Below are positions 13,891 through 36,413 of a stretch of DNA of 37,193 nucleotides, one piece after another. The notes below the pieces were generated by a model that was not told the DNA's origin, searched no databases, and saw only the letters and a program-made list of their open reading frames with translations. This stretch comes from an uncultured Saprospiraceae bacterium (lineage in GTDB: Bacteria > Bacteroidota > Bacteroidia > Chitinophagales > Saprospiraceae). Within the stretch, counting starts at the first letter, position 1. Each line of letters opens with the position of its first letter. The stretch covers positions 1 through 37,193 of the forward strand of contig CALDTJ010000518.1 of assembly GCA_937924145.1 (NCBI GenBank). The letters are read 5' to 3'. Both the position numbers and the translations under genes were made by a program.

Positions 13891-13921
13891 GGGTGTTTTT
13901 ATGTTATGGATAGAATGTTAT

Positions 13922-13993
13922 TGGTTGCTAGTTGCTGGTTGCTAGTTGCTGGTTGCGCTCGAAACTAGCAACCAGCAACTAGTAACTAGCCTA
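13922..13993. repeat. GTTGCNN-unit hairpin touching the stop codon of PorP/SprF
   Basis: The arms consist of seven-base units (GTTGCTA, GTTGCTG) and fold back on the reverse units (CTAGCAACCAGC), with TTGCGCTCGAAAC at the centre. Read on the minus strand, the element starts TAGGCTAGTTAC, where TAG is the stop codon of the PorP/SprF gene (13991-13993). A sister copy with different units but the same centre and border is at 15675-15749. Confidence 0.75.
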
Positions 13994-14935: not shown

Positions 14936-15746
14936 GGGATATAATTATGTTTATGTTTGTATCTATAATTCTAAAAATAAAGCACAAGTCTTAAATTATT
15001 TAAAATTATTATATAAAACTTTTACTAATTCAACTAACTTCTTTTTAGCAAAAAAATTGCGAAAATCGCCTATCTTTTTTTTAAAATAAAACTATAAAAT
15101 GTAATAGATGCCATTCATGAAATGGACTATAATTTTATAGCAACTTGTTGCCGTAAGTGTCTAATACTTACATACCGCAAGGGGCTTCACAAAAAATAGG
15201 CAAAGGTTTAAATCTAGGAGGTGTGAGTATGATTCTCTACGTAATCAAACTATAGTGTTTCAGAGACAGAAAAAATTCCGTTTTGCAGGTTAGTTGGAAT
15301 AGATGAGGGAGTTATTTTCTAACCCACTTTCGTATTCAACTCTTTTGAGATGTATCTGTTTCAAAAAAGACTGCAAATATATTAAATCATAAACGAATAT
15401 GTCATTTTTTAACTTGTTTTTTTTGTCTTTGTAAACTGCCTTACCTATTCCCAATAAAAAAGCCAATCCAGTACGGTTACTGAATCGACTTAGTAGGTCT
15501 TATTAACGGTTGTTTTTTTCAATTTTAATGCTGTCGGTAATTGGAATATAAATTAGGCAATTATCCGCTAGGATATTACCCAGAATTTTTTTTAATCGTC
15601 AATTTCTAAAACGATAAATGTGCCGTCCTCGTGTTTTCTAAATTTATTTTTGTCTAGTTCTTGGCATAAGTTGTATCGGGTTGCGGGTTGCGAGTTGCGG
15701 GTTGCGCTCGAAACCCGAAACCCGAAACTCGCAACCCGTAACCCGC
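14936..15746. other. Spacer between PD40/OmpA and PorP/SprF genes
   Basis: This region of 811 bp has no supported gene. It is very A/T-rich near the PorP start. At its right end is the hairpin repeat 15675-15749. On the minus strand, 15676-15592 reads as a short protein-like end (CQELDKNKFRKHEDGTF, IVLEIDD, stop), a possible gene relic. The length argues against one transcript for the PD40/OmpA and PorP genes. Confidence 0.5.
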
Positions 15747-15749
15747 CTA
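15675..15749. repeat. GTTGCGG-unit hairpin touching the stop codon of the PD40/OmpA gene
   Basis: Seven-base units (GTTGCGG, GTTGCGA) on the left fold onto CCCGAAA/CTCGCAA units on the right over about 30 bp, with the same central GTTGCGCTCGAAAC as the copy at 13922. Read on the minus strand it begins TAGGCGGGTTACGGG, and that TAG (15747-15749) is the stop codon of the PD40/OmpA gene. Confidence 0.75.
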
Positions 15750-17795
15750 CCGCTGCCCAATCAAATGCTCCATTTTCAAGCGATTGACCGCTGTAATTTT
15801 CATTTCTACTCGCTTATTTTGTAAATGTTCTTCTTCGCTACATCGAATACCATCAGAACAATGGTTGAGTAGTTTATCTTCGCCGTAACCAATCGTGCTG
15901 ATTTGCTCTTTTGGCGTCCCTTTATCTAGTAAATATTTCGAGATGGCATCTGCTCTTTTTCGGGCTAGCCGATGATTAAATTTTGCAGTGCCTCTTGCGT
16001 CGGTATGAACCGAAAGCTCCACGCTTATATTTGGGTAACTTTTTAGAAATTGATATACTCGATTTAATTCCTCGATTGTGTTTGGTAATAAATCGGCTTT
16101 ATTCTCTGTAAACGTCATCTTATTTAATAGTGCAATCTCTCCGACCTTATAAAGTCCCTGTTGCTCATATTGAGTCATAGAGGAAAAACGTTTATTTTCT
16201 GTATTGACAATGTCCGCAATTACCTCTTGTTCTATTAAATAGATTTCTGTATTGATGGCATTTAAATTTCCACAATTTCGATACTTAGTCGAGAAATTCT
16301 TTTGGTATTTTCTAAAAGCAGTCTTTTCTCCTGTTAACTCATATTCACAATCACAAGCTAGATAAAAAACAAAGTTGCCCATTTCATCACTGATGGCTCG
16401 CTCTGTTTTTTGAGTCGTTTTATTTAGTAATTCTAGCGAAACATAGGAGGCAGCTTCTCTAAATGGCATATTGATAGCCTTCACTTTTAGAGGAATGCCA
16501 GCTTTTCGTTTTAAGACTAAGTCCCATTGTTTCTTATTAGCCAATTCACTAGCGGATAATATTTTTTTCAATGGTAAATATCCTTCTTTCTCTACAAAAA
16601 CAGTGTAAGATTTTTCTCCCTCCAAAATCATTGAAATCTTACCTCGACTACCTGTTTGATAATTCCTTTTTTCTAATTGCTTATAAGGATTTTGATTAGG
16701 TGTATTTCCTAAGCTCATCATTTTGGCTATTGGATAGACGTCGTTTTGAGTAGTGGTGATGCCATCGTCAAATATGGTTACTAAAGCATTAGAAACACGC
16801 TCTTTACTATGCTGGTCATAGATCAAGATGCTTAATTGATCTGGTGGCAAAATAACTTCCTCCCATTTCCAATGATAGATGTCATCTCCTCCTTTTCCTC
16901 CTGTTCGATCAGAAGAAAAATAACCTTCTTTTCCATCAGGTGTTTCACAAAAGCCAAAATCATCCGCAGTAGAATTAAAATCAACTCCTAAGTTTTGAGC
17001 CCTTAAAAATTCATCTGAGTTGTCTGCTTTCTCCGCTTTGAAGATATCTAAACCTCCAAAACTATTGGTATTATTGGAAGAGAAGTAGAGGGTACCGTTT
17101 GCCGCTAAAAATGGAAATAATTCATTATTCGCACTATTGACAGTTGGACCTAAGTTTTCAGGATGCTGCCAAACTCCATTAATATTTCTACTTCTATATA
17201 AATCCATACCTCCAAATCCTCCAGGCCGATTAGAGGCAAAAATTAATTGACTCCCATCTTCTGAAAGACTTGGGTGACAGTTAGAAAAGTCTTCATCATT
17301 GAGCGGGAGTTCCTGCATATTTTGCCAAACATTATTGACTAATTGGGCAGAATATATTTTTAAATTGATAATGTTTTTTTCATTCTTACCTTTTTCATTA
17401 CTTCTCGTAAAAAATAGCTCTTTGCCATTTTTATTAAGAGCCGCTGCACCATCGTGTACTGGACTACTCGCCTTACCTGGTAGTCTCCGTATATTTATAA
17501 AGCCGTCATAATTACTTTTGTCTGCCACATATAAATCAGAAAATTGACTCTTTTCATCTCTCCATTTAGTCATCGGACTACCAGCAGTTGGTCGGGTTGA
17601 AGTAAAGACCAACTGATCTCCATAAATGAGCGGGGCATATTCCAAAGTTTTGGTATTGATGCTTTCTACATTTCGGATAGTCAAAGTTTCGGTTATGTTT
17701 TGTGCGTTACCCATATTTGCCATCAGGCAAAAGGTAAGCACCCAACCAAAACTTTTAGTGTTTGGTGAAAAATGTTTTTTTAATGTAAGATTCAT
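15747..17795 (-). CDS. PD40-repeat protein with C-terminal OmpA domain
   Basis: The protein has 682 residues from the ATG at 17795; a TTG two codons earlier (17801) is less likely. The signal peptide ends near NMGNAQ. PD40/WD40-like beta-propeller blades are seen as LIFASNRPGGFGGMDLYRS, LYFSSNNTNSFGGLDIF and GYFSSDRTGGKGGDDIYHW (about 40-310). Two carboxypeptidase-regulatory-like beta modules follow (about 325-430 and 440-530). The OmpA domain (about 555-672) has LNKMTFTENKADLLPNT, VELSVHTDARG and HRLARKRADAISKYL, with the Asp/Arg residues that bind peptidoglycan. The layout resembles PorE-type envelope proteins linked to T9SS, but the N-terminal TPR of PorE is missing. It probably ties a surface structure to the cell wall. 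Confidence 0.87.
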   Translation of the reverse strand: MNLTLKKHFSPNTKSFGWVLTFCLMANMGNAQNITETLTIRNVESINTKTLEYAPLIYGDQLVFTSTRPTAGSPMTKWRDEKSQFSDLYVADKSNYDGFINIRRLPGKASSPVHDGAAALNKNGKELFFTRSNEKGKNEKNIINLKIYSAQLVNNVWQNMQELPLNDEDFSNCHPSLSEDGSQLIFASNRPGGFGGMDLYRSRNINGVWQHPENLGPTVNSANNELFPFLAANGTLYFSSNNTNSFGGLDIFKAEKADNSDEFLRAQNLGVDFNSTADDFGFCETPDGKEGYFSSDRTGGKGGDDIYHWKWEEVILPPDQLSILIYDQHSKERVSNALVTIFDDGITTTQNDVYPIAKMMSLGNTPNQNPYKQLEKRNYQTGSRGKISMILEGEKSYTVFVEKEGYLPLKKILSASELANKKQWDLVLKRKAGIPLKVKAINMPFREAASYVSLELLNKTTQKTERAISDEMGNFVFYLACDCEYELTGEKTAFRKYQKNFSTKYRNCGNLNAINTEIYLIEQEVIADIVNTENKRFSSMTQYEQQGLYKVGEIALLNKMTFTENKADLLPNTIEELNRVYQFLKSYPNISVELSVHTDARGTAKFNHRLARKRADAISKYLLDKGTPKEQISTIGYGEDKLLNHCSDGIRCSEEEHLQNKRVEMKITAVNRLKMEHLIGQR

Positions 17796-18208
17796 TGACA
17801 ATTATGTGTGGTTGCAATACCATCCTATTGACGAAAAAAAAATGATGCTTTTATAATTCGCCTTTCTTCCAATCGACTTTCAATCAATTGAGCAGGAATA
17901 ATTATTTGAGAAGCAATCATCTATTCTTAATCGTCCTTTAGTAGTTTCAAGCGATAACATAGTCTTATCGCCGAACCACTAAATTGATCGGTCTGCTCGT
18001 TTTCTCATAGAAATATTTCTCTCTAAAAAATATAGCTTAGACGTAATAGTCTTTACTACAGTACGTATATTTTTTTGTTTGGTGTGGTAATCAACGAAAG
18101 AATGGAATAGCAGCTGTGTCTTATCTAAATTGCAAATTTAATACCAACAGATTAAGAATTTTAAAAATAAATAAAAAATTTTAATTTAAAAAAAATAAAA
18201 ATATGAAA
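17796..18208. other. Spacer upstream of the PD40/OmpA gene
   Basis: This region of 413 bp has no gene. The only structure noticed is a weak imperfect stem near 17950-17980 (GCGATAA...TTATCGC). It probably holds the promoter of the PD40/OmpA gene, but no good -33/-7 pair was recognised. Confidence 0.35.
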
Positions 18209-21200
18209 TTAATGACCAATTATAACCATTTTTTTCAATAATACTTCACTGCCGATTTGGAGTCTAGCAATGTAAAAACCTCCTTGTTGATTAGTTGGTG
18301 AGAATTCGATTTTGTGCTGTCCTTTTGGAGTCAACTCATTGTTAACTAGTGTGTTAACTACTTTTCCGCTGCTGTTGTAAATATCTAATTTTACGGATGT
18401 CTCTTTAGGTGTTTGGTAAACTAGTGTGGCATAATCTTGGAAAGGATTAGGAAAAACTGTCAAACTTGATTTTTCTTCCAATTTTATAGTACTGGTTTGT
18501 AGTTGTGAATAGAATTCTTGGTTAGAAGCCGTAGAAAAACCCTCTGGACACGGAGCTATTTGAGCTAGAAAGTTACTATTTGCTTCAGCGTGGAAGCCAT
18601 TTGTGAGGGTAATAGAAGTTTCCGCAAGGTAAGCAACATCAATACTTGCGGCTATTGTAGAAGAGGCAGTAATGGTCGTTGCTTGGAAGGTATCCGCCTG
18701 TGTAATTGGAGTGTTTATATCTAAACTTGGCGTACAGGTTTCGAAGACCGTACCACAGATACCGATCTCGCCAATTCTCGCATTTCCATCCAGCAAGGAT
18801 AAGCTAAATTTCTGGGTAACAAAAGAAGGCCCATCATATTTTTCCCAAGTATAATTACCCGTTTTAACCGAAATAAGTTGCTGCCAATTACCATCCGTAT
18901 CTTGATAGGAAACGGTGAAGGTACCAGCCGCTGCACCACCATTAAAATAGTGGAAATCGTTTATTTCATATAACACAGGTAGATCTATTTGTACAGAAGA
19001 TGGTGGAGGACCTGTCGCTGGAAAATCAGGCTTGCCCCAGAAGTTTGCTGCATTGATCCAACTTCCTGCTGTCCCACAGAAAGGAACTTGGTCGGGGTTG
19101 TCAAACAAATTCATTTCGTTGAACTCAGTCTCTGGTGTAAGATTTGTGACCCAACTTGGTCGAATACATATAGCGCAAGGACAAGAAAAATTACAAACTA
19201 AATCACATTCTCCTTCAGCAAAAGTGCTTGCACTAATATATAAGGTGTCTACAGATTCTTGGTCAGCCTGATCTATGGTAATGATCTTAAAATTATAGTC
19301 CGTATTTGCCATTAAATTATTGACCAAAGCGGTAGGATTGTCGGCTGTGTAAGGAATTGTATCAGGACTTGGTCCTCCAAAAATGACGTATTCTTTTAAA
19401 TCCATATCGAAAGGATGTTCCCATGCCAAACCCATTGTTTCACAAGAAATATCGTAGATTAGCCCATTTCTACCCTTTCCTGGTTTAATATTGGGGTTGA
19501 AGTTGGTGTCTTCTTCTCCACAAATAAATATTTCGCCAGTTGCTACATTATCATCATTGCTTGCCTCAAATCTAAGATACCTAACTAAACCCGCTACGGG
19601 CTCATTGAACTTTATCCAATCGTTGAATTTTTCGGCATTATAATCAATGACAGTAGTCCAAGGCCCATTAGGCGAATCTGCTTTTTGCACTTTTATATTT
19701 CCAGCAGAACCTCCACCATCGTGAATAAAAATATCGTTGATGTCGTAATAAGCCTGTAAGTCTATACTGACATATTCTGGATCTCCATGAGAATAATCTG
19801 GACCCCAAAAATTGCTTGGGACACTAAAGGGATTACAAATCGGATCATAAGTATCTTGTTCGTCCATCAATTTTTGAGCGTTACCTATTTCTTCATAATA
19901 ATCAAAAATCATAGTTGCATTCAGTGGTATTTTACATTGGTTGATACCTCCAAAAGTGCTAGCAGATAGTTTTAGCGTATCCGTTGATTCCTGATTTGCC
20001 ATATCTACTGTGATAATGGAAAATTCATATAGCGTATTTTCTGCTAAGCCGCCGACTGGATAAGTTTGACTACCTGGGATGTTAAGCGTGATAGGAGTGC
20101 CGCCATTTCTAATAATTTTATAACCTTGTACATCTGGATCAAATGGTGGGTCCCAAGCTAAAGTCATAGATTCGCAAGTAACATTAGAAATAGAACCATT
20201 GACAGGTTTACCGGGAGCAATGTTGGGATCATAATCGGAAAGGCGACCACATAAAAATAACTCACCGACTTTTGCTGCATCACTTTTCTCTGCTGTAAAT
20301 CGCATATAACGCACAGGAATGTGGGCAGGAATGACATTCGTTAGTGTTTTCCAGACATTATAATCTATCGTTAAGTAATCTGCTACGGTTGTCCAAGGTC
20401 CATTAGGCGAGTCTGCTATTTCTATGGTCAGCAAACCTCTACTGCCTTCGTCATGAATGGTAATGGCATCTATATAATAATATTCCTGTAGGTCTATACT
20501 GACGTACATATTTTCATCAAAATTAAAATTGAATCCCCATAAATCACTTTGCGGAGGAAAACTTGCATTTGGATCACACATTGGATCAAAATCATTCTGA
20601 TTGTCAAATAATCCATCTGGATTAACGGTGTTTTTGTATTCGTCAAAAATCCAATTTGGATTGACGGGGATTTTACAACTTTGGTCGGTTGCCACACCTG
20701 TTACTGCACATATTTTATTAGTTTCACTTTCCCCAACTCCTTCAGGGAATAGGAAAAAGGTATAAGGTTGTTCTGCTTTTAAATTTGCTACGGTAATAAC
20801 GGAGTCGCTAGGAGCTAAATCTTCGTCTACTAAAGTTGCCAAACGATGAGAGAAATCTGCTGCACTAAAATTACCTTCCATGTGCCAAAGCTGATAGGTG
20901 CCACTGCCATCGGGGGCATTTAGCCGAACATTGATAGAAGAACACGTCGCATTTTCGACCGTTGGATTCGCTGCGCAAGTGGTGGGTGGAGGAAAGTAAT
21001 TTCCATCTTTAATGATAAAAACAGGTCTTTCACTTATTTCAATCATTGGATTTGCCTCTGACAATGTCCATTGAACTCCATGAATACTAGGTAACTCCAT
21101 TTTTACTAAAGTGGCATCTTCAACATCTTCTTCGTCAAATTCATAATCGAAAACTTTAGCGGAGGAAGTTGGACTCCAAAGCGCATAAACTGTTTTTGCG

Positions 21201-22624
21201 TTATTGGCATCGACATGCTTGAATTTGAAAATCTTTACACAAGTCGTATCACCACAAGGAGAGACATCTCCATCAAACACCATATCAGTCAACACATTTT
21301 TCATGGTATAGGTGTAAAACCATGAGTTTTTTGGTTTGTAATTATTGGCTGCATTTTCCAATAAACCACTACTACTGTATAAGCCAGTATAAGGTGTTTG
21401 CTCATCTCGCAGAAAAAACAACATGGCTCGATCAATCTCAGCGGCTAATGCAGCTAAGTAAATTCGAGTAATCCATTGACCTTGCACTTCATAAGAGTCG
21501 TTTGGGCCAATTTGAGGGGCTATTACAACTGGCGAACCTATAGAACCTTCACCAAAAGTATCATAACCAAATTCTGACAGCCATAACTCCAAATCTGTAC
21601 CCATTGCGGTATTCAAAGAATCTCTATAATCATCAAAGGTTTTTAGAAACGCTTGTAAACCAGCGTGTTCTGGGCTAACTCCTTGAGTAGATTGCAAAAA
21701 GTTGGCATTGTTTCCAATATAATGATGGATGTTTAAAACTTGAAAGGGTAGGACGCCATGTGTGAAACTTGCAGATCGATTGGTTACTGACCAATCAACC
21801 ATTTTTCGAATATAATCTAAATTAGCTTCTGCCAAACCTCCCATGACTACCTTCATATTTGGATCGGCATTTTTGATTCCAATGCCTGTACCTAAGCTAT
21901 TCCCATGACCGTCATAGTCTGCACTCAACATCGTAGCATACTCCTCTGGCTCGAAGTAGGTGGTCGGATTTGTACCTCGCCACCACCACTTGTCTTGTTC
22001 GTTCCAACTCTCCATATATTCCACCAAGCCGAGTCCTGTTTTTGCCGTTTCTTCAGGGTGGGTTCTAGGAACGATGATGTTGTTAAAGTCGCTGGCATTG
22101 AAGGTGTTATGTCCATATCTGGCGGCATAATGATATAGATAGGCTGCGTGTGCTTTGTAAGACGCAGGATCTAAAGTATTCGCGTTTGAGACCACTGGAA
22201 TTTGCTCCTGCACGATATGATTGTCACTCTGATAGGTATCTCTAGATGGATCTACAATTTGGAATAAATTACCTAGAAAAGAAGGAGCAATTTGAATATC
22301 ATTGACGTTTCTAATTTCGTCATAAAATGCTCCAAATCTGGTAAAGGTCAGGTCTTGGTATACTTTGTCCCAACGGTAGACGGCATTCGGATAACTTGGT
22401 GAAAAATCAGTTTGTATCTGGCTTGGATTTCCTTCGTTCAAATACCAAGAATGGTACTCTCGAATAAATCCTACTGCTTTCATTTTTTCGACTGGATCTT
22501 CTCTTAAGGTATTGACCCCCATGAAACGATCGACCGTAATTTGCGCGCTTAAAAATTGGCTACAAAATAGTAAGAAAACTAAGCAGCTTAGGTGTGGAAA
22601 TTTATTAGTGAGTGGCAATTGCAT
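18209..22624 (-). CDS. Secreted glycoside-hydrolase-like protein with discoidin/FN3 modules and T9SS type A tail
   Basis: The protein has 1471 residues from ATG 22624, which starts a good signal peptide (ending FLSAQ). A GTG 14 codons earlier is less likely. Residues about 29-550 look like a TIM-barrel glycoside hydrolase of clan GH-A type: N208-E209 in MESWNEQDKWWW would be the acid/base, and E351 in LELWLSEFGYD the nucleophile. Three discoidin-like (F5/8 type C) modules (about 690-795, 900-1010 and 1130-1255) each contain a VSIDL/VQIDL...GPWTT or similar pattern, with FN3 modules between (TLAWDPPFDPDVQGYKI). A GFHAEANSNFLAQI spacer motif and a Por sorting tail (last ~85 residues, LTVFPNPFQDYATLVY) complete it. 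Inferred: a polysaccharide-degrading or -binding surface enzyme. The GH family is not identified. Confidence 0.75.
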   Translation of the reverse strand: MQLPLTNKFPHLSCLVFLLFCSQFLSAQITVDRFMGVNTLREDPVEKMKAVGFIREYHSWYLNEGNPSQIQTDFSPSYPNAVYRWDKVYQDLTFTRFGAFYDEIRNVNDIQIAPSFLGNLFQIVDPSRDTYQSDNHIVQEQIPVVSNANTLDPASYKAHAAYLYHYAARYGHNTFNASDFNNIIVPRTHPEETAKTGLGLVEYMESWNEQDKWWWRGTNPTTYFEPEEYATMLSADYDGHGNSLGTGIGIKNADPNMKVVMGGLAEANLDYIRKMVDWSVTNRSASFTHGVLPFQVLNIHHYIGNNANFLQSTQGVSPEHAGLQAFLKTFDDYRDSLNTAMGTDLELWLSEFGYDTFGEGSIGSPVVIAPQIGPNDSYEVQGQWITRIYLAALAAEIDRAMLFFLRDEQTPYTGLYSSSGLLENAANNYKPKNSWFYTYTMKNVLTDMVFDGDVSPCGDTTCVKIFKFKHVDANNAKTVYALWSPTSSAKVFDYEFDEEDVEDATLVKMELPSIHGVQWTLSEANPMIEISERPVFIIKDGNYFPPPTTCAANPTVENATCSSINVRLNAPDGSGTYQLWHMEGNFSAADFSHRLATLVDEDLAPSDSVITVANLKAEQPYTFFLFPEGVGESETNKICAVTGVATDQSCKIPVNPNWIFDEYKNTVNPDGLFDNQNDFDPMCDPNASFPPQSDLWGFNFNFDENMYVSIDLQEYYYIDAITIHDEGSRGLLTIEIADSPNGPWTTVADYLTIDYNVWKTLTNVIPAHIPVRYMRFTAEKSDAAKVGELFLCGRLSDYDPNIAPGKPVNGSISNVTCESMTLAWDPPFDPDVQGYKIIRNGGTPITLNIPGSQTYPVGGLAENTLYEFSIITVDMANQESTDTLKLSASTFGGINQCKIPLNATMIFDYYEEIGNAQKLMDEQDTYDPICNPFSVPSNFWGPDYSHGDPEYVSIDLQAYYDINDIFIHDGGGSAGNIKVQKADSPNGPWTTVIDYNAEKFNDWIKFNEPVAGLVRYLRFEASNDDNVATGEIFICGEEDTNFNPNIKPGKGRNGLIYDISCETMGLAWEHPFDMDLKEYVIFGGPSPDTIPYTADNPTALVNNLMANTDYNFKIITIDQADQESVDTLYISASTFAEGECDLVCNFSCPCAICIRPSWVTNLTPETEFNEMNLFDNPDQVPFCGTAGSWINAANFWGKPDFPATGPPPSSVQIDLPVLYEINDFHYFNGGAAAGTFTVSYQDTDGNWQQLISVKTGNYTWEKYDGPSFVTQKFSLSLLDGNARIGEIGICGTVFETCTPSLDINTPITQADTFQATTITASSTIAASIDVAYLAETSITLTNGFHAEANSNFLAQIAPCPEGFSTASNQEFYSQLQTSTIKLEEKSSLTVFPNPFQDYATLVYQTPKETSVKLDIYNSSGKVVNTLVNNELTPKGQHKIEFSPTNQQGGFYIARLQIGSEVLLKKMVIIGH

Positions 22625-22659
22625 CTTTGTGAAATTTGTTTTGTTATGTTTTGGTATTT

Positions 22660-22693
22660 CAAACACTATTTATGTATTGAATAATAGTGTTTG
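22660..22693. promoter_or_regulatory. Inverted repeat in the leader of the glycosidase-like gene
   Basis: CAAACACTATT (22660-22670) and AATAGTGTTTG (22683-22693) form a perfect 11-bp stem with a 12-nt loop, 36 bp before the chosen ATG. It could be an operator or an RNA hairpin in the 5' leader. Function is inferred from position only. Confidence 0.4.
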
Positions 22694-25995: not shown

Positions 25996-27017
25996 ATGTG
26001 TATTTGTCAGATTTTAGAGTTGGTCTTTTATCTTCTTTGTCAAATTACTACCTACTGATTCCCTTTGATTTATAATTTTGTTAAAATCAGCGGGGCACTT
26101 GAAGTGACCCGCTGATAGTCCACAGTATTTGTCTAAGAACCATAATTTTTATTTGTTTTGGATGTTTTTCAATTTATCCACAATTTCCAATACTTTATCA
26201 CAGTAAAATTGATCTATTTGTCATTCTTTGAAACCCTTTCCGCATTGATCTTCGTATTACTAATTGCTAATATATAGCATAAAGTGATTTTGTTACATAT
26301 TAAAATATGAATAATATTTAAATATTTTTACCGTATTTATTTAATAATCAATACATTTGCAAAAATGTATACGAATTTTTTGAATAAAGAAAAAAAACAG
26401 ATTTTATCCTGTTTTGTGATTTTAAATTAATGACCTATTTTACGGCAACTTAATACCTAACACAATCTATTTAGCGACGAATAATATCCCCAATTAACTG
26501 AACTACACACAAAGAGTAATTGCTAAATAGGCCTTACCACGGCCTGAAAGTTTAAACTAGTCTTACAAAAAAACTAAATTATCCATCTTCTTGGAAGGTG
26601 CTTAATATATCACAGGCATTAGTACACCTATAAATAAATTTTTTAACCTTAGTTTTAAATTATTGTAGAAGCCTATCTAATATAGATTGGATTTTACTAA
26701 GAGATACTAGCGGTTGACCAAATTTAAAATGTGAATAAATAGAAATGACATTTAAGATAAGAGATTCCTTTTCTCTTATTTCACTATTTGACAAAGAAGT
26801 AGCCACATTTAACGAATGCGCTTATTGGAGTAGAATGACTATTTTCTATCAGTTTTTAGAGCTAATAAAAAATACTCATTTCAATAAAAGTGGAGCTTGT
26901 TTGGTCGTTTCTACGCCTTGCTGTGAGCTAATTTATTACGCTCTAACAAGTTATTCCTCTATTTTAAATCCAATCTATCACTAGATTCCCAGAATTAATA
27001 AACTATTAAAATTGATT
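25996..27017. other. Long spacer upstream of the second giant gene
   Basis: About 1 kb without a supported gene. A hairpin (TCAGCGGG with CCCGCTGA, 26087-26115) is present. On the minus strand, 26220-26149 reads as a protein-like end (QIDQFYCDKVLEIVDKLKN, then IQNK, stop), a possible relic. TACATTTG at 26352-26359 is a possible -7 box. If it is used, the giant gene has a leader of over 600 nt. A 79-codon frame at 26745-26984 is judged non-coding. Confidence 0.45.
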
Positions 27018-30000
27018 ATGAAGCAATTATTTTACCCACCACCCATCAGACAATTGATGATGGTACTTATGCTGCTAATTGCAGGTAACTCCTTTCTTTT
27101 TGCAGAAGGGTCAGTTGATTTCAGAAATTATCCAGGCAATCGACTATTTTATAATGTAGAGCAGAATCAACAGCTTAAAGTATATGCAAATGCTGGGGAA
27201 TCTATTAATGTCGGATCGAGTCATGTTGGTATCAATGGTGGCACCATCGAGGTTTATGATCCTAATGGTAACCTTGTACAGACTTTTGACGGAGCTGGAG
27301 ATAGAGCGATTATCTTCAACGATGTTCAAGAATTAGCAGGTCCAACAGGCGGTAATGGTTACAGCCCAGGGGTTGTTACTGCTACTCAAAGTGGTGTATA
27401 TACTGTTCGTTTGCGATATCCAGAACCCTTTGCACTCGGTTTTGTCAGTGCCTTACTAAATAGTGATCCTTGGACTAGGGCTAATGATCAGCCTCAAGGA
27501 GGGCAATTTCCTACCAGACACCAAAGAGTCGCTTTGGCTTGGGACGTTACCATTACCCAAGGTGGGGCAGGTGATGCTGGTGGAACTCCTGTGACAGGTC
27601 GCCTTTACTCTAAAGAATATATCTCTATTTTGGATGGAAATGATGGAGCGAATGGACCTAGATCTACTTCTCCTACCTTCTTCATATTAACTAGAGCAGG
27701 ATATTTGTATCAAGTAAATTTCTCGGATACAGACCCTTGGGGATTCCCAATTTATTCTAACTCATTTGGTTTGGTTACTGGAGATTTTGTTCCTACTTAT
27801 ATGTCTGGTACGATTGGAGCAGATGTATTCGATCAAGCTAATGGTGGAAGCTCTTATGTTCGATCCCCCAGTCCTGATACTTGGGTAGAAGGGACTACTT
27901 ATTTATATGAGCCACAAGCGGCAGATATTGGACCTATTAGTAATAATAAGATATTCTTTAATACTCCAGATCCTAATTTACCGACATCTGCTTTGGTGAC
28001 GGATACGGATACAGAAAGAAATAATACGCATACTACTTGGTTGTTGAATGAAATTCCTGCTTTAAATAACGTAGAACCATTTACTTTTAAAGGAATTTTA
28101 CCTGCCAATGGTTCTTGTCAAGGAGATTTAGTGGCAGAAGAGGGAGAAGGTGGAAATTTTGTCTTTGATTCTGAATTAGAAGGACAAGCGGTATTACAGA
28201 TTGACCTAAATAATAATGGTACTTATACCGACCCAGTCGATGTTACTATTAATAAAAATGTACGATTTGGTTTGGATTCTATTTTCTGGAATGGTACAGA
28301 TGGTACTGGTGCAGTTATTCCTGCTAATCCAAATTTTAATTTCAATTATATTTTAACCGTTAGAGGTGGAGAAATTCACTTGTTGCTAGAAGATATTGAA
28401 AATAATAATGGTGGGGTAACTTTTAGTAGATTAAATGGCCCTGGTAGCCCTGCTAATAGTTTCAACTACGATCACTCAGGTATCGGAGGTGCTACAAGTG
28501 GCGGAGGTGCTCCAGGTAATCCTCAACCAACTACTGTCCCTTTCACTTATTCTGATGGTTTCGGTAACGAAAAATTATTAGACCAATGGGCGTTTATTGA
28601 AACTAGTAATTTCGGTACAGGTACTTTGGCCATTAATATTCAACAAGAATGTAGCCCAGGAGATCACGACAATGATGGTATTCCTGACATAGTAGATATT
28701 GATGATGATAATGATGGGGTTCCTGATTTATTAGAATATTGTCACCCTACTGAAGGATTTGCTTGTTTACCAAATGGTTTAGACCCAAGTGGAGATGCAG
28801 ATGGTGATGGTGTACAAAACTTTGAAGATGCAAACGATGCAGCAGTAGGAAACAGTTGTACAGATAGTAACAATGATGGTATATGTGACCAAATCGCTGC
28901 TATTTATGATACTGATGGAGATAATGTACCAGATCATTTTGATTTAGATTCTGATAATGATGGTATTAGTGACTTAGTAGAGGCGGGTCATAATCAACCA
29001 GATGCAGATGGAAATGGTGTAATTGATGGTGATAATTCAGTTTTCGGAGCAAACGGTTTTTATGTTAATTTAGAAACGAATGACGCTCAAACTGCTGTTG
29101 CCAATTACGTACCTTGGGATTTTGATGGTGATGGTATTCCAGATCATGATGATTTAGATTCTGATAATGATGGAATTTTAGACGTAGTTGAGGCTGGATA
29201 TGCTAATTCTGATTCTAACCAAGACGGACGAATTGATGATGGAAATGGAAATGTACCTGCTGTAAACGGTGATGGTCTTGTACCATTAATTAATCCAGCT
29301 ATCACAGGTGTTGGGATTCCTCTTCCAATCGACTGGGATAACGATGGTATTCCAGATTGGCATGATTTAGATTCTGACAATGATGGTATTTTAGATGTAA
29401 TCGAAGGTGGTTACCAAGGTAATGATACCAATGGTGACGGACGAATTGATGATGGTAACGGAAATGTTCCTTCTGTGAATTCAGATGGTCTACCTCCAGT
29501 TATGCAGAATGGTCCAATTACTTTACCGCCAGATACAGACAATGATGGTATTAGAGATTGGCATGACTTAGACTCTGATAATGACGGTATCAATGATACG
29601 GTTGAAAATAGAAATCCTGATGGCGACGCAGACGGTTTTATTGGCACTGGTCCAATTACTGTTGATGCAAATGGAGTGGCTATCGCAGATGCAAATGGAC
29701 CAATTACTCCTTTTGCTCCATTGGTGAATACTGATGGTGAAGGACCAGGTGACTTTAGAGATTTAGATGCAGATGGCGATGGTATTAATGATGTGATCGA
29801 AGGCGGTCTAGCTGATCCTGACGGTGATGGTCTAATTGGTACAGGAACACCAGCAGTAAATCCATTTGGACAAGCAACAGGCGTAACTTCTAATCCAACG
29901 GATACAGATAATAACGGAGTACCTGATTTCCAGCAGTTACCTCCAGTAGACGAATCTTGTGAAGCACCAGCTGTACCGACTCTATCTTCTTCTGCAACAC

Positions 30001-33000
30001 AAGTTTGTGAAGGAGAGGCTGTAACATTCACAGCTACGGGAGTACCTGCTGCTGCGGATATTACTTATATATGGACAAATGGAACATCTGAGTTTACGAC
30101 TACTGCTCCTACCTTTACTTTAAACCCAACTGTTGTTAGTAATACTGGAACTTATACTGTTTCTGCGGTTAGAGATACTTGTAATTCAGGTGCATCAAAT
30201 GCAATTAGCTTAACAGTTAGTCCTAGACCTGCGTCACCTGTTATTATCGCAAGTGCAACGAGTGTTTGTGAAGGAGAGGCAGTGACATTAAGTACCAATG
30301 TGGTAGAAAATCCAGCGATTACTTATCAATGGACATTAACTAATGCAAGTGGTTCGCAATTGGTAGCAAATTCAACTAGTCCAAATCTAGTTTTAGATCC
30401 AATTTCAGCTAGTCAGGCAGGAACTTATTCTGTTGTTGCTACTGGTGGAGGTGGTGCTTGTCCAAGTGCCCCATCTGCGGGTGTAGCGATTGCTGTTGGT
30501 TCTGCTTCGACACCTCCAGTTATTACTGCTAGTACTACAAGTGTTTGTGAAGGAGAGGCGGTTACCTTAACTTCTAATGGACCAGTAGATGATACCTATC
30601 AGTGGACATTGACTACAGCGGACGGAAATTCGCAAGTTGTACCAAATGCTACAGGGTCTTCTTTAGTTTTAGATCCGATAGCTGCTAGCCAAGCTGGAAC
30701 TTATACAATAGAAGCTCTTAATAGTGATTGTCCGAGCGGCCCATCAGCAGGTGTAAGTATAGCTGTAACGCCAAAACCAGTTACACCAACAATGACAGTT
30801 GATAAAGCAGTTCATTGTGAAGGAGAAAGATTAGTCTTTATGACTCCACGTGTTGAAGGCACTGATGTTTTATATGAATTTACATTTACGAATGTTGATG
30901 GTAGAACAGATCCATTAGTTACGACTTCTCAGCCTAGTGCAGTGATTGAGCAGCTAGTTGCTGCCAATACAGGAATGTATCAAGTAAGAACAATCGTTAA
31001 TGGTTGTCCTTCTGATTTCTCTGAAGGGGTTGCTGTTGATGTATCAGCTGGTGGTTTACCAAATGTTACAGCTAGTTCCTCTGCGCCTGTTAATAATCCA
31101 GCATGTGAAGGAGATGATGTAACACTTTCCGTAACACCAGTTGACGGAGCGACTTACGAATGGTCAGGTCCTAACGGAGTTGTAGGAACAACAGCAGATG
31201 TTGTTTTAGAAAATGCGGCTGCTGCTGCTAGTGGACAATACTCAGTTACTGTTACTGTGGGTGAATGTCCAAAAACATTAGATCCAGTTATAGTTCAAGT
31301 TGATCCGAAACCAGCTACACCAACTTTAAGTGTTGATAACGCTGCAGTTTGTCCAGGTGAAAGTTTTACTTTATCTACGGACGCAGTTGCAGGTGATAAC
31401 GTGACTTATGATTGGTTATTGAATGGCACTGTGGTTACTTCAACGACTGAACCAACTTTATTGATAGCTACACCAACAGATGCAGATGCAGGAAGTTATA
31501 CGGTTGTGGCAAGAGATGGCGGTTGTCCTTCTGATCCATCCAATGCAGTAGATGTTGCTATTCAACCTCCTCTAGCAGGCGATATTACTTCAGACCCAGC
31601 AGGTGGTGTTTGTGAAGGTGAATCTATCACTTTGACTGCTCCAAGTGCAGATGGCGCAACTTATGCATGGACTGGTCCTAATGGATTTACTTCTGCTGAT
31701 GCAGCTATTACTTTAGATAATGTAACGCCAGCTAATAATGGTGATTATTCTGTGGTAGTAACTGTAAATGGTTGTCCAAATAACTTTGGTCCAACTACTT
31801 TAGAAATAAATACTAAACCAGCTACACCAACTATTTCTACAGATAAAGATAGCGCATGTCCAGGTGAGGCAGTTACATTAAGTACTGCTGCTGCAACGGG
31901 AGATGCTATTACGTATGATTGGTTATTAAATGGGACGGTAGTCGCTACTACTGATGTACCAACTCTTGAAATTTCTGATTTCCAAGCAACTAATGCTGGT
32001 GATTACACCGTAGTAGTCAAAGATGGCTCTTGTCCATCTGATCCTTCGGATCCTGCTGCATCAGTAGCATTGAAAGAAGGTTTGGAAGGGGTGTCTGCTA
32101 GCTCTAATAGCCCTGTTTGTATCGGTGATCCGATCAACTTGACGGCTACAGATGTAGAAGGTGCTACTTACGCATGGACTGGCCCTAATGGCTACACTTC
32201 TTCAGAACAAAACCCAACGATTGAGAATGCAACGGAAGCTAATGCTGGTGATTATACCGTAGTGGTTACAGTAGATGGTTGCCCTGCAACTATTCCTCCA
32301 ACAACTGTTGAGGTTACGCCTAAACCTGCTGCTCCAGTTGTAACAGTAGCTGAGGAGAATGTTTGTGAAGGTACAACAGGTGTCCTTAATGTAACTTCGC
32401 CAGATCCAATTCCAGAAGGTATGACCTTTACTGCTTTGGATGCTGTAGGAGCAACAGTTGGAACAAGTACAACTGGCGTTATCGAAATAGCAACGGATAG
32501 CTTAGAAGGTATCCAATTTTACTCTGTTATTTCTCAGTTAGACGGTGGATGCCCAAGTGAGCCATCAGAGGCTGTGGCTATCAATGTTGTACCAAAACCA
32601 ACCGAAGAGGCAGCAATTGCAACTGCTCCTGATGGTGGTGATCCTTGTGGTATGGCTCCAATGTCTTTAGAAGGGAATGCTTCTACTGAAGGTACAGGAA
32701 CTTGGACAAGTAGTAATGCAGATGTTGTTTTTGTAGATCCTAATAGTCCAACTACGGATGTAATGGGATTAGAAGATGGTGATGTAGTGACTTGGACCTT
32801 TGCGAATGAGGCTTGTGGAGAATATTCTTCTGCTAGTATCACAATTATCGCAATGCCACCAATGACGACTGCCAATGATGATGCATTTACTATTTTAAAT
32901 TCAGAATCTATTACAGGTCAAAGTATTACTGGTAACGATACACCAAATGGTGGTGGAGTAACTGTTATTTCTGGTCCTTCAAATGGTACAGGAACAATTG

Positions 33001-33407
33001 ATGCTAATGGTAACCTAACTTATACGCCAGCTGCTGGGTTTATTGGTACAGATCAAATAGTTTACGAATTATGTGATTTAGAATGTCCAGCTGCACCTTG
33101 TGATCAAGCAACAGTTACAATTACTGTCAATCAAGATCCTTCTGATTTAGATTGTACCGTTGCAGATGTAATTTCTCCAAATGGAGATGGTTTGAATGAT
33201 AGATTAATCATTCCTTGTTCTGACTTTAAGAATGTAGGATTGAAGATCTTCAACCGTTGGGGAGATTTAGTTTTTGAAGCTGATAACTATAACAATGATT
33301 GGGATGGTACACACGATGGTGCTGATTTACCTCCTGGACCATACTACTATATTTTCGAAGAAAATGGCGTAGAACCAACAACGGGTTGTGTCTCTATTGC
33401 AAGATAA
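27018..33407 (+). CDS. Giant T9SS type B substrate with calcium-binding and Ig-like repeats
   Basis: The protein has 2129 residues from ATG 27018; a TTG two codons earlier is less likely. The signal peptide ends at SFLFAEG. Residues about 30-540 form an unrecognised N-terminal region. Residues about 547-975 carry thrombospondin type 3-like calcium sites (DNDGIPDIVDIDDDNDGVPD and many similar). Residues about 980-1945 form about ten Ig-like repeats with CEGExVTL or CPGE starts and GDYTVVV strands ending CPSDPS. A cadherin-like module (about 1949-2038, ANDDAFTILN) and the type B sorting domain (last ~85 residues: ISPNGDGLNDRL, IFNRWGDLVFEA, LPPGPYYYIF) follow. It is a surface adhesin or gliding-type filament by inference, made rigid by calcium. 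It is the first gene of an operon with PorP/SprF (129 bp on) and a PD40 protein. Confidence 0.9.
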   Translation: MKQLFYPPPIRQLMMVLMLLIAGNSFLFAEGSVDFRNYPGNRLFYNVEQNQQLKVYANAGESINVGSSHVGINGGTIEVYDPNGNLVQTFDGAGDRAIIFNDVQELAGPTGGNGYSPGVVTATQSGVYTVRLRYPEPFALGFVSALLNSDPWTRANDQPQGGQFPTRHQRVALAWDVTITQGGAGDAGGTPVTGRLYSKEYISILDGNDGANGPRSTSPTFFILTRAGYLYQVNFSDTDPWGFPIYSNSFGLVTGDFVPTYMSGTIGADVFDQANGGSSYVRSPSPDTWVEGTTYLYEPQAADIGPISNNKIFFNTPDPNLPTSALVTDTDTERNNTHTTWLLNEIPALNNVEPFTFKGILPANGSCQGDLVAEEGEGGNFVFDSELEGQAVLQIDLNNNGTYTDPVDVTINKNVRFGLDSIFWNGTDGTGAVIPANPNFNFNYILTVRGGEIHLLLEDIENNNGGVTFSRLNGPGSPANSFNYDHSGIGGATSGGGAPGNPQPTTVPFTYSDGFGNEKLLDQWAFIETSNFGTGTLAINIQQECSPGDHDNDGIPDIVDIDDDNDGVPDLLEYCHPTEGFACLPNGLDPSGDADGDGVQNFEDANDAAVGNSCTDSNNDGICDQIAAIYDTDGDNVPDHFDLDSDNDGISDLVEAGHNQPDADGNGVIDGDNSVFGANGFYVNLETNDAQTAVANYVPWDFDGDGIPDHDDLDSDNDGILDVVEAGYANSDSNQDGRIDDGNGNVPAVNGDGLVPLINPAITGVGIPLPIDWDNDGIPDWHDLDSDNDGILDVIEGGYQGNDTNGDGRIDDGNGNVPSVNSDGLPPVMQNGPITLPPDTDNDGIRDWHDLDSDNDGINDTVENRNPDGDADGFIGTGPITVDANGVAIADANGPITPFAPLVNTDGEGPGDFRDLDADGDGINDVIEGGLADPDGDGLIGTGTPAVNPFGQATGVTSNPTDTDNNGVPDFQQLPPVDESCEAPAVPTLSSSATQVCEGEAVTFTATGVPAAADITYIWTNGTSEFTTTAPTFTLNPTVVSNTGTYTVSAVRDTCNSGASNAISLTVSPRPASPVIIASATSVCEGEAVTLSTNVVENPAITYQWTLTNASGSQLVANSTSPNLVLDPISASQAGTYSVVATGGGGACPSAPSAGVAIAVGSASTPPVITASTTSVCEGEAVTLTSNGPVDDTYQWTLTTADGNSQVVPNATGSSLVLDPIAASQAGTYTIEALNSDCPSGPSAGVSIAVTPKPVTPTMTVDKAVHCEGERLVFMTPRVEGTDVLYEFTFTNVDGRTDPLVTTSQPSAVIEQLVAANTGMYQVRTIVNGCPSDFSEGVAVDVSAGGLPNVTASSSAPVNNPACEGDDVTLSVTPVDGATYEWSGPNGVVGTTADVVLENAAAAASGQYSVTVTVGECPKTLDPVIVQVDPKPATPTLSVDNAAVCPGESFTLSTDAVAGDNVTYDWLLNGTVVTSTTEPTLLIATPTDADAGSYTVVARDGGCPSDPSNAVDVAIQPPLAGDITSDPAGGVCEGESITLTAPSADGATYAWTGPNGFTSADAAITLDNVTPANNGDYSVVVTVNGCPNNFGPTTLEINTKPATPTISTDKDSACPGEAVTLSTAAATGDAITYDWLLNGTVVATTDVPTLEISDFQATNAGDYTVVVKDGSCPSDPSDPAASVALKEGLEGVSASSNSPVCIGDPINLTATDVEGATYAWTGPNGYTSSEQNPTIENATEANAGDYTVVVTVDGCPATIPPTTVEVTPKPAAPVVTVAEENVCEGTTGVLNVTSPDPIPEGMTFTALDAVGATVGTSTTGVIEIATDSLEGIQFYSVISQLDGGCPSEPSEAVAINVVPKPTEEAAIATAPDGGDPCGMAPMSLEGNASTEGTGTWTSSNADVVFVDPNSPTTDVMGLEDGDVVTWTFANEACGEYSSASITIIAMPPMTTANDDAFTILNSESITGQSITGNDTPNGGGVTVISGPSNGTGTIDANGNLTYTPAAGFIGTDQIVYELCDLECPAAPCDQATVTITVNQDPSDLDCTVADVISPNGDGLNDRLIIPCSDFKNVGLKIFNRWGDLVFEADNYNNDWDGTHDGADLPPGPYYYIFEENGVEPTTGCVSIAR

Positions 33408-33421
33408 GGTAAGTTAACTTT

Positions 33422-33493
33422 GTTGACTGCAAATGCTTGAGACCTGTTAGATTTTCAAAGTCTAACAGGTCTAAGCCCAAGCATCAGTCGACT
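33422..33493 (+). promoter_or_regulatory. Intercistronic hairpin between giant gene and PorP/SprF
   Basis: The core stem GACCTGTTAGA / TCTAACAGGTC (33441-33451 and 33461-33471) is extended by ATGCTTG/CAAGCAT and GTTGACTG/CAGTCGAC, with interruptions. No T run follows, so it more likely marks an RNA processing or stability site, or partial termination, within the operon than a full terminator. Confidence 0.55.
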
Positions 33494-33536
33494 TAATTAA
33501 CAATTGTTTGTATCAAAAATGAAAAATTTTTAAAAA

Positions 33537-34472
33537 ATGAATAGAATTATATATACAACTGCCTTCTTGCTTTTCAGCCTTATGGCGATGGCGCAAAACG
33601 ATGTGCAGTATACCAATTATTTATTTAATAGGTTGGCTTATAACCCAGCTTATGCAGGTAGTGCAGGCGTACCAGTAGTGAACGCGCTCTACCGTAATCA
33701 GTGGACAGGTGGTTTTGCCGATGGCAAAGCTCCTAAGACTGGAACCATTAACTACCATGCACCGATCCAATGTGGAAGAGGTGGATTGGGATTTGGCTTT
33801 ACTAGTGATAAAGCTGGTATTTTCAACAGTAACCGTTTGGATGGAGCGTATGCTTACAAATTTAATGTCTCTAAAAAAGGGGTGTTAAGTTTAGGTTTAG
33901 GGGCTCAACTTGAATTCGGTAGTGCAGACTATTTCCGAACGAATCCATTAGATCAAGGAGATTTGACGATTGAGAATGGAAACGATACTTATAATAAGAC
34001 TAGAGTAAACTTTGGTGCAGGATTATATTATACCCATAATGATAATTTTTACATCGGTTTGTCTGCTCCACAATTATTGAATACTTCTTACTTCAGAGAG
34101 GTTAACATATCTGGTGATGGTAATGATTTTCATACTTACTATTTGATGTTAGGGTTTGTAACTGATTTGTCTAGTAATATCAAATTAGTACCAGGAGCAA
34201 TGCTTAGTTTGCATGGAAACGCACCATTTGAATTTGATATCAATGCCAATTTGGTTTTTATGGATAAATTGTGGGTTGGTTTAAATTATAGATTAGACGA
34301 CTCGATTGATGGGTTGATTCAATATCAATTAACCAACGATCTTAGAGCTGGGTTTTCTTATGATTTCACAACTAGTGATATCAAGAATTATTCTAATGGT
34401 AGTTTAGAATTTTTACTGTCTTATTCATTCAATAATTTCAGTAAGAATTTGAGTAATCTCCGTTACTTCTAA
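33537..34472 (+). CDS. PorP/SprF family T9SS membrane protein (second copy)
   Basis: The protein has 311 residues. A signal peptide (1-19, ending AMAQ) is followed by DVQYTNYLFNRLAYNPAYAG and NALYRNQWTGF-like residues, the typical PorP/SprF opening, then barrel strands. The final strand is EFLLSYSFNNFSKNL. It lies 129 bp after the giant type B gene and 66 bp before the PD40 gene, all in one direction, so co-transcription is likely. Known for the family: outer-membrane partner for secretion or anchoring of a type B substrate, here presumably 27018-33407. It is clearly diverged from the copy at 13991-14935, which suggests each serves its own substrate. Confidence 0.9.
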   Translation: MNRIIYTTAFLLFSLMAMAQNDVQYTNYLFNRLAYNPAYAGSAGVPVVNALYRNQWTGGFADGKAPKTGTINYHAPIQCGRGGLGFGFTSDKAGIFNSNRLDGAYAYKFNVSKKGVLSLGLGAQLEFGSADYFRTNPLDQGDLTIENGNDTYNKTRVNFGAGLYYTHNDNFYIGLSAPQLLNTSYFREVNISGDGNDFHTYYLMLGFVTDLSSNIKLVPGAMLSLHGNAPFEFDINANLVFMDKLWVGLNYRLDDSIDGLIQYQLTNDLRAGFSYDFTTSDIKNYSNGSLEFLLSYSFNNFSKNLSNLRYF

Positions 34473-34538
34473 TCAAAACTTATAATCAAGAATTGAGTCT
34501 TGAGACTTGATTCATTACTTATAATAAGCATAATAATC

Positions 34539-36413
34539 ATGATTAAAAAAAATATATTAATGCTACTTTTTCTAACCTTGTCTGTGGCTGCTTTCAGTCA
34601 AGCGGAGTTGGAAGAAGTATCTGTCACCAATATCAGGGTTATCAATACACCCCATAATGATTTTGTGGCAGTTCCTTACGGCGAGGGAATTATGTATAAT
34701 TCTTACGCCAAAGATAATAAGTGTGATACTTGTAGTATTCAGTCTTTAAAGTTTGCTAGTAAGCAAGCAGATGGAGACTGTAGTTTTTCGGCAGGAGTTT
34801 CTGTGCCCAACCAGTTAGAGGCAAAGCACAATTACGGTGCAGCTACATTTGCTCCAGATGGTGAGATGATGATCTTGTCTCAAAATAATACGACACCAAG
34901 AAAATCAGATCGTCGTAAGACTATGAAGTTGACAACTTCTATAAAGTCAGATCAAAATTCTTGGGTAAAAGGTGAAGATCTTCCTTTTAATAGTAATGAA
35001 TTTGAAACAACGCACCCGTTTCTTTCTGCTGATGGGCAGACCCTTTATTTTGCATCTGATAGACCAGGCGGAATCGGTGGAATGGATATTTGGAAAGTTA
35101 CAAAACAGGGAGAAACTTGGGGTACACCAATGAACCTTGGAGCACCTATCAATAGTCCAGGAAATGAATTATTTCCTGCTATTTCTGCTACTGGTGCCTT
35201 GTCCTATTCTTCTAATAGAGCAGGAGGTTTAGGTGGCCTAGATCTTTATACTGCAACTATGGAAAATGGTGCATGGACGACTGCCAACTTAGGTGCGCCA
35301 TTTAACTCTATGGCAGATGATCTAGGTTATGTAGAAAATGCAGATGGCGAAAGTGGCTATTTGACTTCTAATAGAGCAGGTGGACAAGGTGAAGATGATA
35401 TTTACTGTTGGAAAGTAAATAAAGCACCTGTAATTTTAGCAGTAGAAGATGCCAATACTTCAAAAAGATTACCTGGAGCAGATATTAACGTATTAGGACC
35501 TGTTGGGTCTGCTTTAGCTTATGTTGCTGATGGTAATGGTGGTGCGGAACCAGATATTACTTATCGTAGAAAGTACAAAGTGACCGCTGAAAAAGAAGGA
35601 TACTTGCCTTGGGAAGGAGAAATGACGGCAAAGGAATTGGCTATGGCTGATCCTTATATCATTCCTTTAATACCTAGAGGATATACTTTAAATGGAGATG
35701 TAAAAATTTTGGGGACCGAAACAATTGTTCCTGGTTCAAAGATTGTTTTGCATAATTTAACGACTGGTGAAAAACGAGAGGCGATTGCTGATGAAAATGG
35801 TAATTTCAAGTTTGAGAATATCTATTGTTTTGAGGATTATGAGTTGATTGCTTATGATGGCACAGAAGGAAACATGAGAGAGTCTGCTAAGTATCCATTG
35901 CCTGCTAGTGCAATCGACTGCTCAGGAGAAAAGGAAACAGTTGTTCCATTGAAAATTCCTGTACCTCCACCGCCGCCACCACCAGTATGTGCGTGTAATG
36001 ATGCAGGTATCTTGAGTTTGCCATTGGATGCAACACCAAAGCGGATTCACACTTTAGGGTCTAGACCAGAATTTGGAAATTCTCATAACTTAGATGCTGC
36101 TGGCTTCTTTAAGAAGTTGACTGATCGTTACAATCGTAGTGCTAGAGATAAGAAATATTTAGATGAAGTATTTACAGCGATGGGCTACGCCAACGGATTC
36201 GCCGACGCTAGTGAATATACTTTCTCTGAAACAGTTATTCCTAATGGTATGACTGGAAATATGGGCTACACTAAACGTCACCGTATTCAATACGTACAGT
36301 TGAACGCAAGAAATGATAGAGACTTACAGGCCTTTAGAGTTTCTTCTGTGAATGCTTGTGATGTTTACTTTATGAAGACTTGTGGTAACTTGTTCTTCTT
36401 TTGTAATAATTAG
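34539..36413 (+). CDS. PD40-repeat envelope protein with a non-OmpA C-terminal domain
   Basis: The protein has 624 residues from ATG 34539, which begins the signal peptide (1-21, ending AAFSQ); a TTG 13 codons earlier is less likely. PD40 blades occur as LYFASDRPGGIGGMDIWKV, SYSSNRAGGLGGLDLYTA and GYLTSNRAGGQGEDDIYCW. Two carboxypeptidase-regulatory-like modules follow (about 300-385 and 390-475), then a proline run (VPPPPPPPVCAC). The last ~130 residues have no OmpA motif. They contain FFKKLTDRYNRSARDKKYLD and end in DVYFMKTCGNLFFFCNN, with several cysteines, and are not recognised. The relative at 15747-17795 has the same front part but an OmpA end. It is probably a T9SS-linked periplasmic or outer-membrane partner of the two preceding genes. 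Confidence 0.8.
   Translation: MIKKNILMLLFLTLSVAAFSQAELEEVSVTNIRVINTPHNDFVAVPYGEGIMYNSYAKDNKCDTCSIQSLKFASKQADGDCSFSAGVSVPNQLEAKHNYGAATFAPDGEMMILSQNNTTPRKSDRRKTMKLTTSIKSDQNSWVKGEDLPFNSNEFETTHPFLSADGQTLYFASDRPGGIGGMDIWKVTKQGETWGTPMNLGAPINSPGNELFPAISATGALSYSSNRAGGLGGLDLYTATMENGAWTTANLGAPFNSMADDLGYVENADGESGYLTSNRAGGQGEDDIYCWKVNKAPVILAVEDANTSKRLPGADINVLGPVGSALAYVADGNGGAEPDITYRRKYKVTAEKEGYLPWEGEMTAKELAMADPYIIPLIPRGYTLNGDVKILGTETIVPGSKIVLHNLTTGEKREAIADENGNFKFENIYCFEDYELIAYDGTEGNMRESAKYPLPASAIDCSGEKETVVPLKIPVPPPPPPPVCACNDAGILSLPLDATPKRIHTLGSRPEFGNSHNLDAAGFFKKLTDRYNRSARDKKYLDEVFTAMGYANGFADASEYTFSETVIPNGMTGNMGYTKRHRIQYVQLNARNDRDLQAFRVSSVNACDVYFMKTCGNLFFFCNN

Follow-up and report, generated by a model that had tools for sequence, protein, structure and literature searches.

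OmpA-type domains are a standard wall hold for Gram-negative proteins, and the locus described here raises the question of whether a different module can stand in for them. The DNA analyzed, called the window below, is a stretch of 37,193 nucleotides from an uncultured marine Saprospiraceae bacterium (GenBank assembly GCA_937924145.1, contig CALDTJ010000518.1). An earlier note on this DNA had drawn attention to a protein encoded at positions 34539 to 36413, in which an OmpA domain seemed to be replaced, after a proline run, by an unrecognised cysteine-containing domain, and had suggested that the new end may anchor to something other than peptidoglycan. This C-terminal domain is referred to here as domain X, or X.

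Two type B-PorP-PD40 cassettes in the window

The protein ending in X is encoded by an open frame with an ATG start on the plus strand (34539 to 36413; 624 amino acids [aa]). A gene for a PorP/SprF barrel lies directly upstream (33537 to 34472, plus strand; Pfam, 1.3e-67; TIGR03519, 232 bits), and the first gene of the cassette encodes a giant type B (CHU_C) T9SS surface protein (27012 to 33407, plus strand) recognised by CHU_C and TIGR04131. The window carries two versions of this three-gene set, which lie on different strands and have opposite gene orders, one with X at 27012 to 36413 on the plus strand and one with OmpA at 8269 to 17801 on the minus strand. The OmpA-type cassette consists of a type B T9SS protein (8269 to 13890, minus strand; TIGR04131, 50.3 bits; cutoff, 35), a PorP/SprF barrel (13991 to 14935, minus strand; Pfam and NCBIfam), and a PD40 protein of 684 aa with a TTG start (15747 to 17801, minus strand), the end of which is an OmpA domain (Pfam, 62.8 bits) showing the D-x7-N-x6-R spacing. 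The OmpA end of this relative had been recognised in the earlier note, which placed it at 15747 to 17795 with no strand; the plus frame over 15747 to 17801 is riddled with stops, and the gene lies on the minus strand. The DNA between the two cassettes encodes, at 18209 to 22666 on the minus strand, a T9SS type A protein of 1485 aa that contains a 3-coathanger stack domain.

The front parts of the two PD40 proteins are of the same kind, as had been supposed. They are 32% identical over residues 12 to 295 (E value, 1.3e-47), and the same two PorE-type models head the NCBIfam results of both, in each case with scores below the cutoffs. The best NCBIfam score of both is that of the CHU_0125 family (NF053607; 204 and 327 bits; cutoff, 620), an OmpA-like outer membrane integrity protein that belongs by name to the OmpA family. 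The gene order type B giant, PorP, and PD40-X is conserved in the window and in all seven related loci examined, and this arrangement resembles the PorP-PorE-type B set of Porphyromonas gingivalis. According to PMC9143113, PorP and PorE of P. gingivalis are in a complex with the type B protein, and contact of this complex with the wall is believed to run through the OmpA domain of PorE; F. johnsoniae is reported there to have six porP-like genes adjoining porE-like genes.

From its N terminus, the window protein consists of a putative signal peptide, a PD40 propeller, a CarboxypepD_reg domain, a proline linker, and domain X. Residues 1 to 21 (34539 to 34601) read by eye as a signal peptide-like stretch, with a helix at residues 4 to 15 in a full-length model (pLDDT, 71.6; pTM, 0.49; 8 sequences) that gives rough boundaries only. 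The PD40 or beta-propeller part covers about residues 27 to 297 (34617 to 35429; Pfam PD40, 8.1e-15), and propeller strands are present in the full-length model at modest confidence. CarboxypepD_reg (residues 384 to 438; 35688 to 35852; Pfam, 34.0 bits; cutoff, 32.3) and a proline run at about residues 474 to 482 follow, and domain X takes up the last 142 residues (483 to 624; 35985 to 36410), with an FMKTCGN signature at its residues 129 to 135 (36369 to 36389) and FMKTCGNLFFFCNN as the C-terminal end of the protein. Like PorE (NF052230), the protein combines a PD40 propeller, a carboxypeptidase-regulatory-like domain, both above the Pfam cutoffs, and a C-terminal module. However, it reaches 191 bits against NF052230, the cutoff of which is 600; it shows no TPR in Pfam at an E value of ≤1; its first cysteine is residue 62, and it has no lipobox cysteine; and X stands instead of OmpA_C. 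No OmpA was found in the protein with Pfam or NCBIfam, and its last 142 residues match nothing in either library, which bears out the replacement of OmpA after the proline run. The protein is a PorE-like tether with a new tail; it is not an artefact and very probably not an OmpA variant.

Domain X as a protein family

Searches with domain X gave no match in Pfam, NCBIfam, PHROGs, or PDB sequences. None of the 22 members of a first alignment (A1) matches OmpA in Pfam, X has no Pfam match to SPOR (PF05036), and no paper on an X-like domain was found in the open-access literature searched. A second copy, 53% identical, is present in the host genome, and a single-sequence query matched 18 of 100 nearby genomes (E value of ≤0.01), which indicates that X is more than a product of chance. 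It is a real family and not a degenerate tail. With an 80-row profile, X was detected in 54 of 398 Saprospiraceae genomes and in 21 of 112 genera, and in a class-wide sample the same profile found it in 1 of 395 genomes, namely, that of the window. When one genome for each species was scanned with FMKTCGN as the seed, 142 pattern hits were obtained, 114 of which were confirmed as relatives, and 79 loci were retained. The Bacteroidota titles among these 79 loci are Saprospiraceae, Chitinophagales, Bacteroidia, or Bacteroidetes, and the other titles are Hellea, Litorimonas, Robiginitomaculum, or Caulobacterales (Alphaproteobacteria). In a sample of the alphaproteobacterial class, the only genome with X among 289 was that of Hellea balneolensis, around which the sample was centred.

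In a tree of X based on few columns and rooted at the midpoint only, 34 of the 35 alphaproteobacterial rows form one supported group adjoining the Bacteroidota DUF1508 forms, and the remaining row is a long branch; this topology would be compatible with a single transfer into Alphaproteobacteria. The PD40-X rows form a single clade, and PD40-X is present in eight of the nine genomes of the window's genus. A mobile origin of X was considered and rejected, as the viral contigs gave 32 pattern hits and no confirmed X, and none was found in plasmids or phages.

When the carriers were typed by motif, with two genomes (G556 and G735) corrected by eye and the window's PD40 copy omitted, the DUF1508 form was the commonest X carrier, being present in 44 of the 54 X-bearing family genomes. 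It is the sole carrier in 35 of the 54, and at least 16 of these 35 genomes are at least 95% complete. Among the carrier classes of the X proteins, two were left as "frag," and one protein typed as a barrel (L117) is probably a DUF1508 fragment. At five loci (L229, L365, L369, L370, and L372), long DUF1508 (YegP-like) arrays, with up to nine stretches, precede an envelope anchor module; these arrays are an uncharacterised protein type. Neighbour clustering of the 79 loci revealed no partner gene that is widely common across X carriers, and the widely shared neighbour genes are mostly confined to a single type of carrier or a single taxon. Neighbours of the type B and PorP kinds were found only with the PD40-X form (7 of 7), and the idea that the domain is always encoded beside PorP and type B genes holds for this form alone, in the window and in those seven loci.

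Conserved residues and predicted fold of domain X

The invariants of X are LG..P, several glycines, H99, D113, and FMKTCGN. The polar residues invariant in all 80 rows of the larger alignment (A3) are H99, D113, K131, T132, C133, and N135, the last four of which lie within FMKTCGN; because this motif was the search seed, its invariance in A3 (80 of 80) is biased. The motif is also invariant in all 22 rows of A1, which were gathered without it. Cysteine content, to which the earlier note had given weight, did not prove to be the key to this pattern, and C125 is variable. A disulfide was also considered: C2 is a cysteine in each of the 72 rows covering its position, but no pairing is claimed.

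An AlphaFold2 model of X based on 80 rows reached a pLDDT of 91.4 and a pTM of 0.87. In this model, a short strand (residues 19 to 21) is followed by a helical hairpin (helices 38 to 51 and 53 to 65), a short helix (71 to 74), and six strands interrupted by a further short helix. The model has no match at an E value of ≤0.001 in PDB (Foldseek) or BFVD, VIA gave two rows (Z, 2.4 and 2.0), and the best Foldseek row is a papain-like toxin (E value, 0.04; TM, 0.24; rmsd, 12.4). As modelled, the fold of X is without a clear PDB neighbour, and therefore no binding site can be transferred to it.

These data bear on the possibility that X is a strongly diverged OmpA that retains the peptidoglycan site. 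X resembles OmpA_C (PF00691) in its comparable size and in the position that it occupies on the four families of carriers. However, it has no sequence similarity to OmpA_C, the hhalign comparison of the two profiles gave a probability of 0.1% over 5 columns, and a diverged OmpA fold was not seen: OmpA chains are missing from the best 50 Foldseek rows and from the rows of the second aligner, although such an absence falls short of proof. As described in the structural portions of PMC7192894, the D-x7-N-x6-R positions of the PorE OmpA domain are the peptidoglycan-contacting Asp, Asn, and Arg side chains, which hold the stem peptide, and the order of elements is alpha1-beta1-alpha2-beta2-alpha3-alpha4-alpha5-beta3. 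This spacing was found in 24 of 30 OmpA rows of the host genome versus 0 of 80 X rows, and the helix and strand order of the X model differs from the one given there. A diverged OmpA is scarcely credible as an explanation of X.

The invariance of H99, D113, and C133 in 80 of 80 rows could also be that of an envelope enzyme, for example, a cysteine-histidine hydrolase remodelling the wall near its carrier, and the weak top Foldseek rows are rich in papain-like cysteine peptidases (8ssm, 9l5u, and the PCAT1 peptidase; E values, 0.04 to 2.9). However, the papain-like matches fail to superpose (TM, about 0.2; rmsd, 12 to 14), the best match of the second aligner (Z, 2.4) goes to other proteins, and C133 is within the seed used for A3. 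Divergent X copies occur in G030, G562, and G578; in these, an alignment by eye places other residues at the H99 and D113 positions and only CGN is clearly kept, which disfavours a Cys-His-Asp enzyme and leaves this explanation very improbable. In G030 and G562, proteins that look secreted contain two divergent copies of X.

Interchange of OmpA and X on four carriers

The C-terminal module is either OmpA or X on PD40 tethers, Saprospiraceae TSP3 barrels, alphaproteobacterial barrels, and DUF1508 arrays. Among the best-match loci of PD40 carriers in 30 genomes, 8 have X, 21 have OmpA, none has both, and 1 is unreadable (L207, a masked stretch). For the alphaproteobacterial barrel, 33 homologues in 20 regions, which were chosen by hand and not at random, comprise 22 with OmpA, 11 with X, and none with both. 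Saprospiraceae TSP3 barrels with X were found at six loci (L058, L059, L064, L067, L071, and L081), and all 11 of the long homologous frames of relatives have an OmpA end; shorter frames of 227 to 335 aa, containing the barrel only, fall outside these 11. Among 20 DUF1508 regions of relatives, also hand-chosen and several of them not of the array type, an OmpA profile built from the window's genome revealed an OmpA end in eight, with a ninth after refetching, and a Pfam check of the OmpA-tailed DUF1508 proteins found OmpA in seven of eight, six of them above the cutoff. OmpA was found in none of the 79 X proteins; 24 X proteins from the genome search overlap these 79, and one of the 24 (L049) was improperly extracted. 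In their sequences, four unrelated carriers from two phyla display the swap of OmpA and X. The host genome has 41 OmpA matches above the cutoff, and therefore X was not forced by the loss of OmpA.

Adjacent barrel genes with OmpA and X tails were found in four genomes, G824 (Hellea balneolensis), G833, G834, and G835. The barrels of these pairs share amino acid identities of 95.6, 99.5, 93.4, and 93.4%, respectively, compared with 28 to 37% for the rest. Near-identical adjacent barrels that differ in the linker and the C-terminal module (OmpA or X) are seen at L260 (1074 to 4137), L262 (1081 to 4158), L263, and L264. At L260, which is from Hellea balneolensis, the X form lies at 2701 to 4134 and the OmpA form at 1104 to 2489. 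The DNA identity of the L262 barrels is 98.6%, pointing to a probable recent duplication or conversion.

Two loci show other arrangements. At L299 (351 to 3335, minus strand), in another genus, X lies inside a weak PD40-type protein and is nested in a weak OmpA, an exception to the exclusion of OmpA and X; it precedes the recognised OmpA part (Pfam, 19.5 bits, below the cutoff) and, by eye, comes after the apparent first strand of the OmpA domain. At L302 (237 to 1052, plus strand), SPOR (22.0 bits; cutoff, 21) is followed by a divergent X, the one instance of X beside this family, to which X is similar in being an envelope module. SPOR is a peptidoglycan-binding family.

Location and possible ligand of domain X

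The PD40-X, TSP3 barrel, and alphaproteobacterial barrel proteins have starts that resemble signal peptides by eye, and a strong hydrophobic stretch before X (1.6 or more) is found in 0 of 7, 0 of 6, and 0 of 27 of them, respectively, and in 1 of 5 giant X forms. The DUF1508-X proteins start without a signal and have a hydrophobic 19-mer before X in 30 of 33 cases; the charge rule favours a periplasmic X in 18 of these 33 carriers, and some of the stretches are Ala-rich and not clear helices. Taken from such features, X would lie in the periplasm in all carriers. PD40-X and DUF1508-X occur together in the window's genome and in five others of its genus, and Hellea balneolensis has barrel, giant, and DUF1508 forms of X.

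The interchange with OmpA on four carriers argues that X does the same job, and X is probably an interchangeable envelope anchor that displaces OmpA, whatever its ligand. An exact OmpA duty for X would make the tandem pairs hard to explain, and the keeping of these pairs argues for a nonidentical ligand, that is, another site, wall form, or polymer. From the sequences we infer anchoring by X at a periplasmic site with peptidoglycan as the ligand; peptidoglycan is the likeliest candidate, although we give it no more than about an even chance.

X could instead anchor to something other than peptidoglycan, as the earlier note had suggested, and the partner might be a protein, a periplasmic polymer of another kind, or a second X domain, bridging an inner membrane DUF1508-X protein with an outer membrane barrel-X or PD40-X protein. 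Such a ligand would fit the retention in genomes of both the OmpA and the X versions of one barrel, and it would fit the presence in single genomes of X on proteins of apparently different membranes. However, X occupies the place of OmpA on the carriers tested. With the DUF1508 form as the sole carrier in 35 of 54 genomes, the outer membrane X partner is dispensable, and an obligate bridge of two X proteins is therefore unlikely. On the whole, a ligand other than peptidoglycan is regarded as doubtful.

In the favoured reading, the signal peptide would export the window protein, and its propeller and regulatory-like domain would hold the underside of the PorP barrel carrying the type B giant, as may be supposed from the parts of PMC9143113 on P. 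gingivalis PorE. Domain X, via the proline linker, would tie the complex to the wall in the stead of OmpA. It may read a peptidoglycan site or form distinct from the DAP stem peptide that OmpA recognises, given that both modules are retained side by side in genomes. A wider and more tentative proposal, to which we give somewhat less than an even chance, is that X represents a new fold, binding to the wall or associated with it, whose spread within Saprospirales was followed by a single move into Hellea-type Alphaproteobacteria, and which displaced OmpA on at least four unrelated envelope proteins. In cells with near-identical OmpA and X barrels side by side, the outer membrane would then be divided between two tether ligands, which could be two forms of peptidoglycan or peptidoglycan plus a different polymer.

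Domain X is missing from the searched releases of Pfam, NCBIfam, and PHROGs, and a single model could close this gap over dozens of genomes. The tandem barrels of Hellea, which are near-identical save for the linker and module, offer a natural experiment, and the strain that has them is a cultured type strain. If a second module, unrelated in sequence, does swap with OmpA across carriers and phyla, the tether itself would be replaceable, and the swap would provide a handle on possible tie points of the outer membrane. A second type of envelope anchor, as yet unrecognised, may exist in bacteria.
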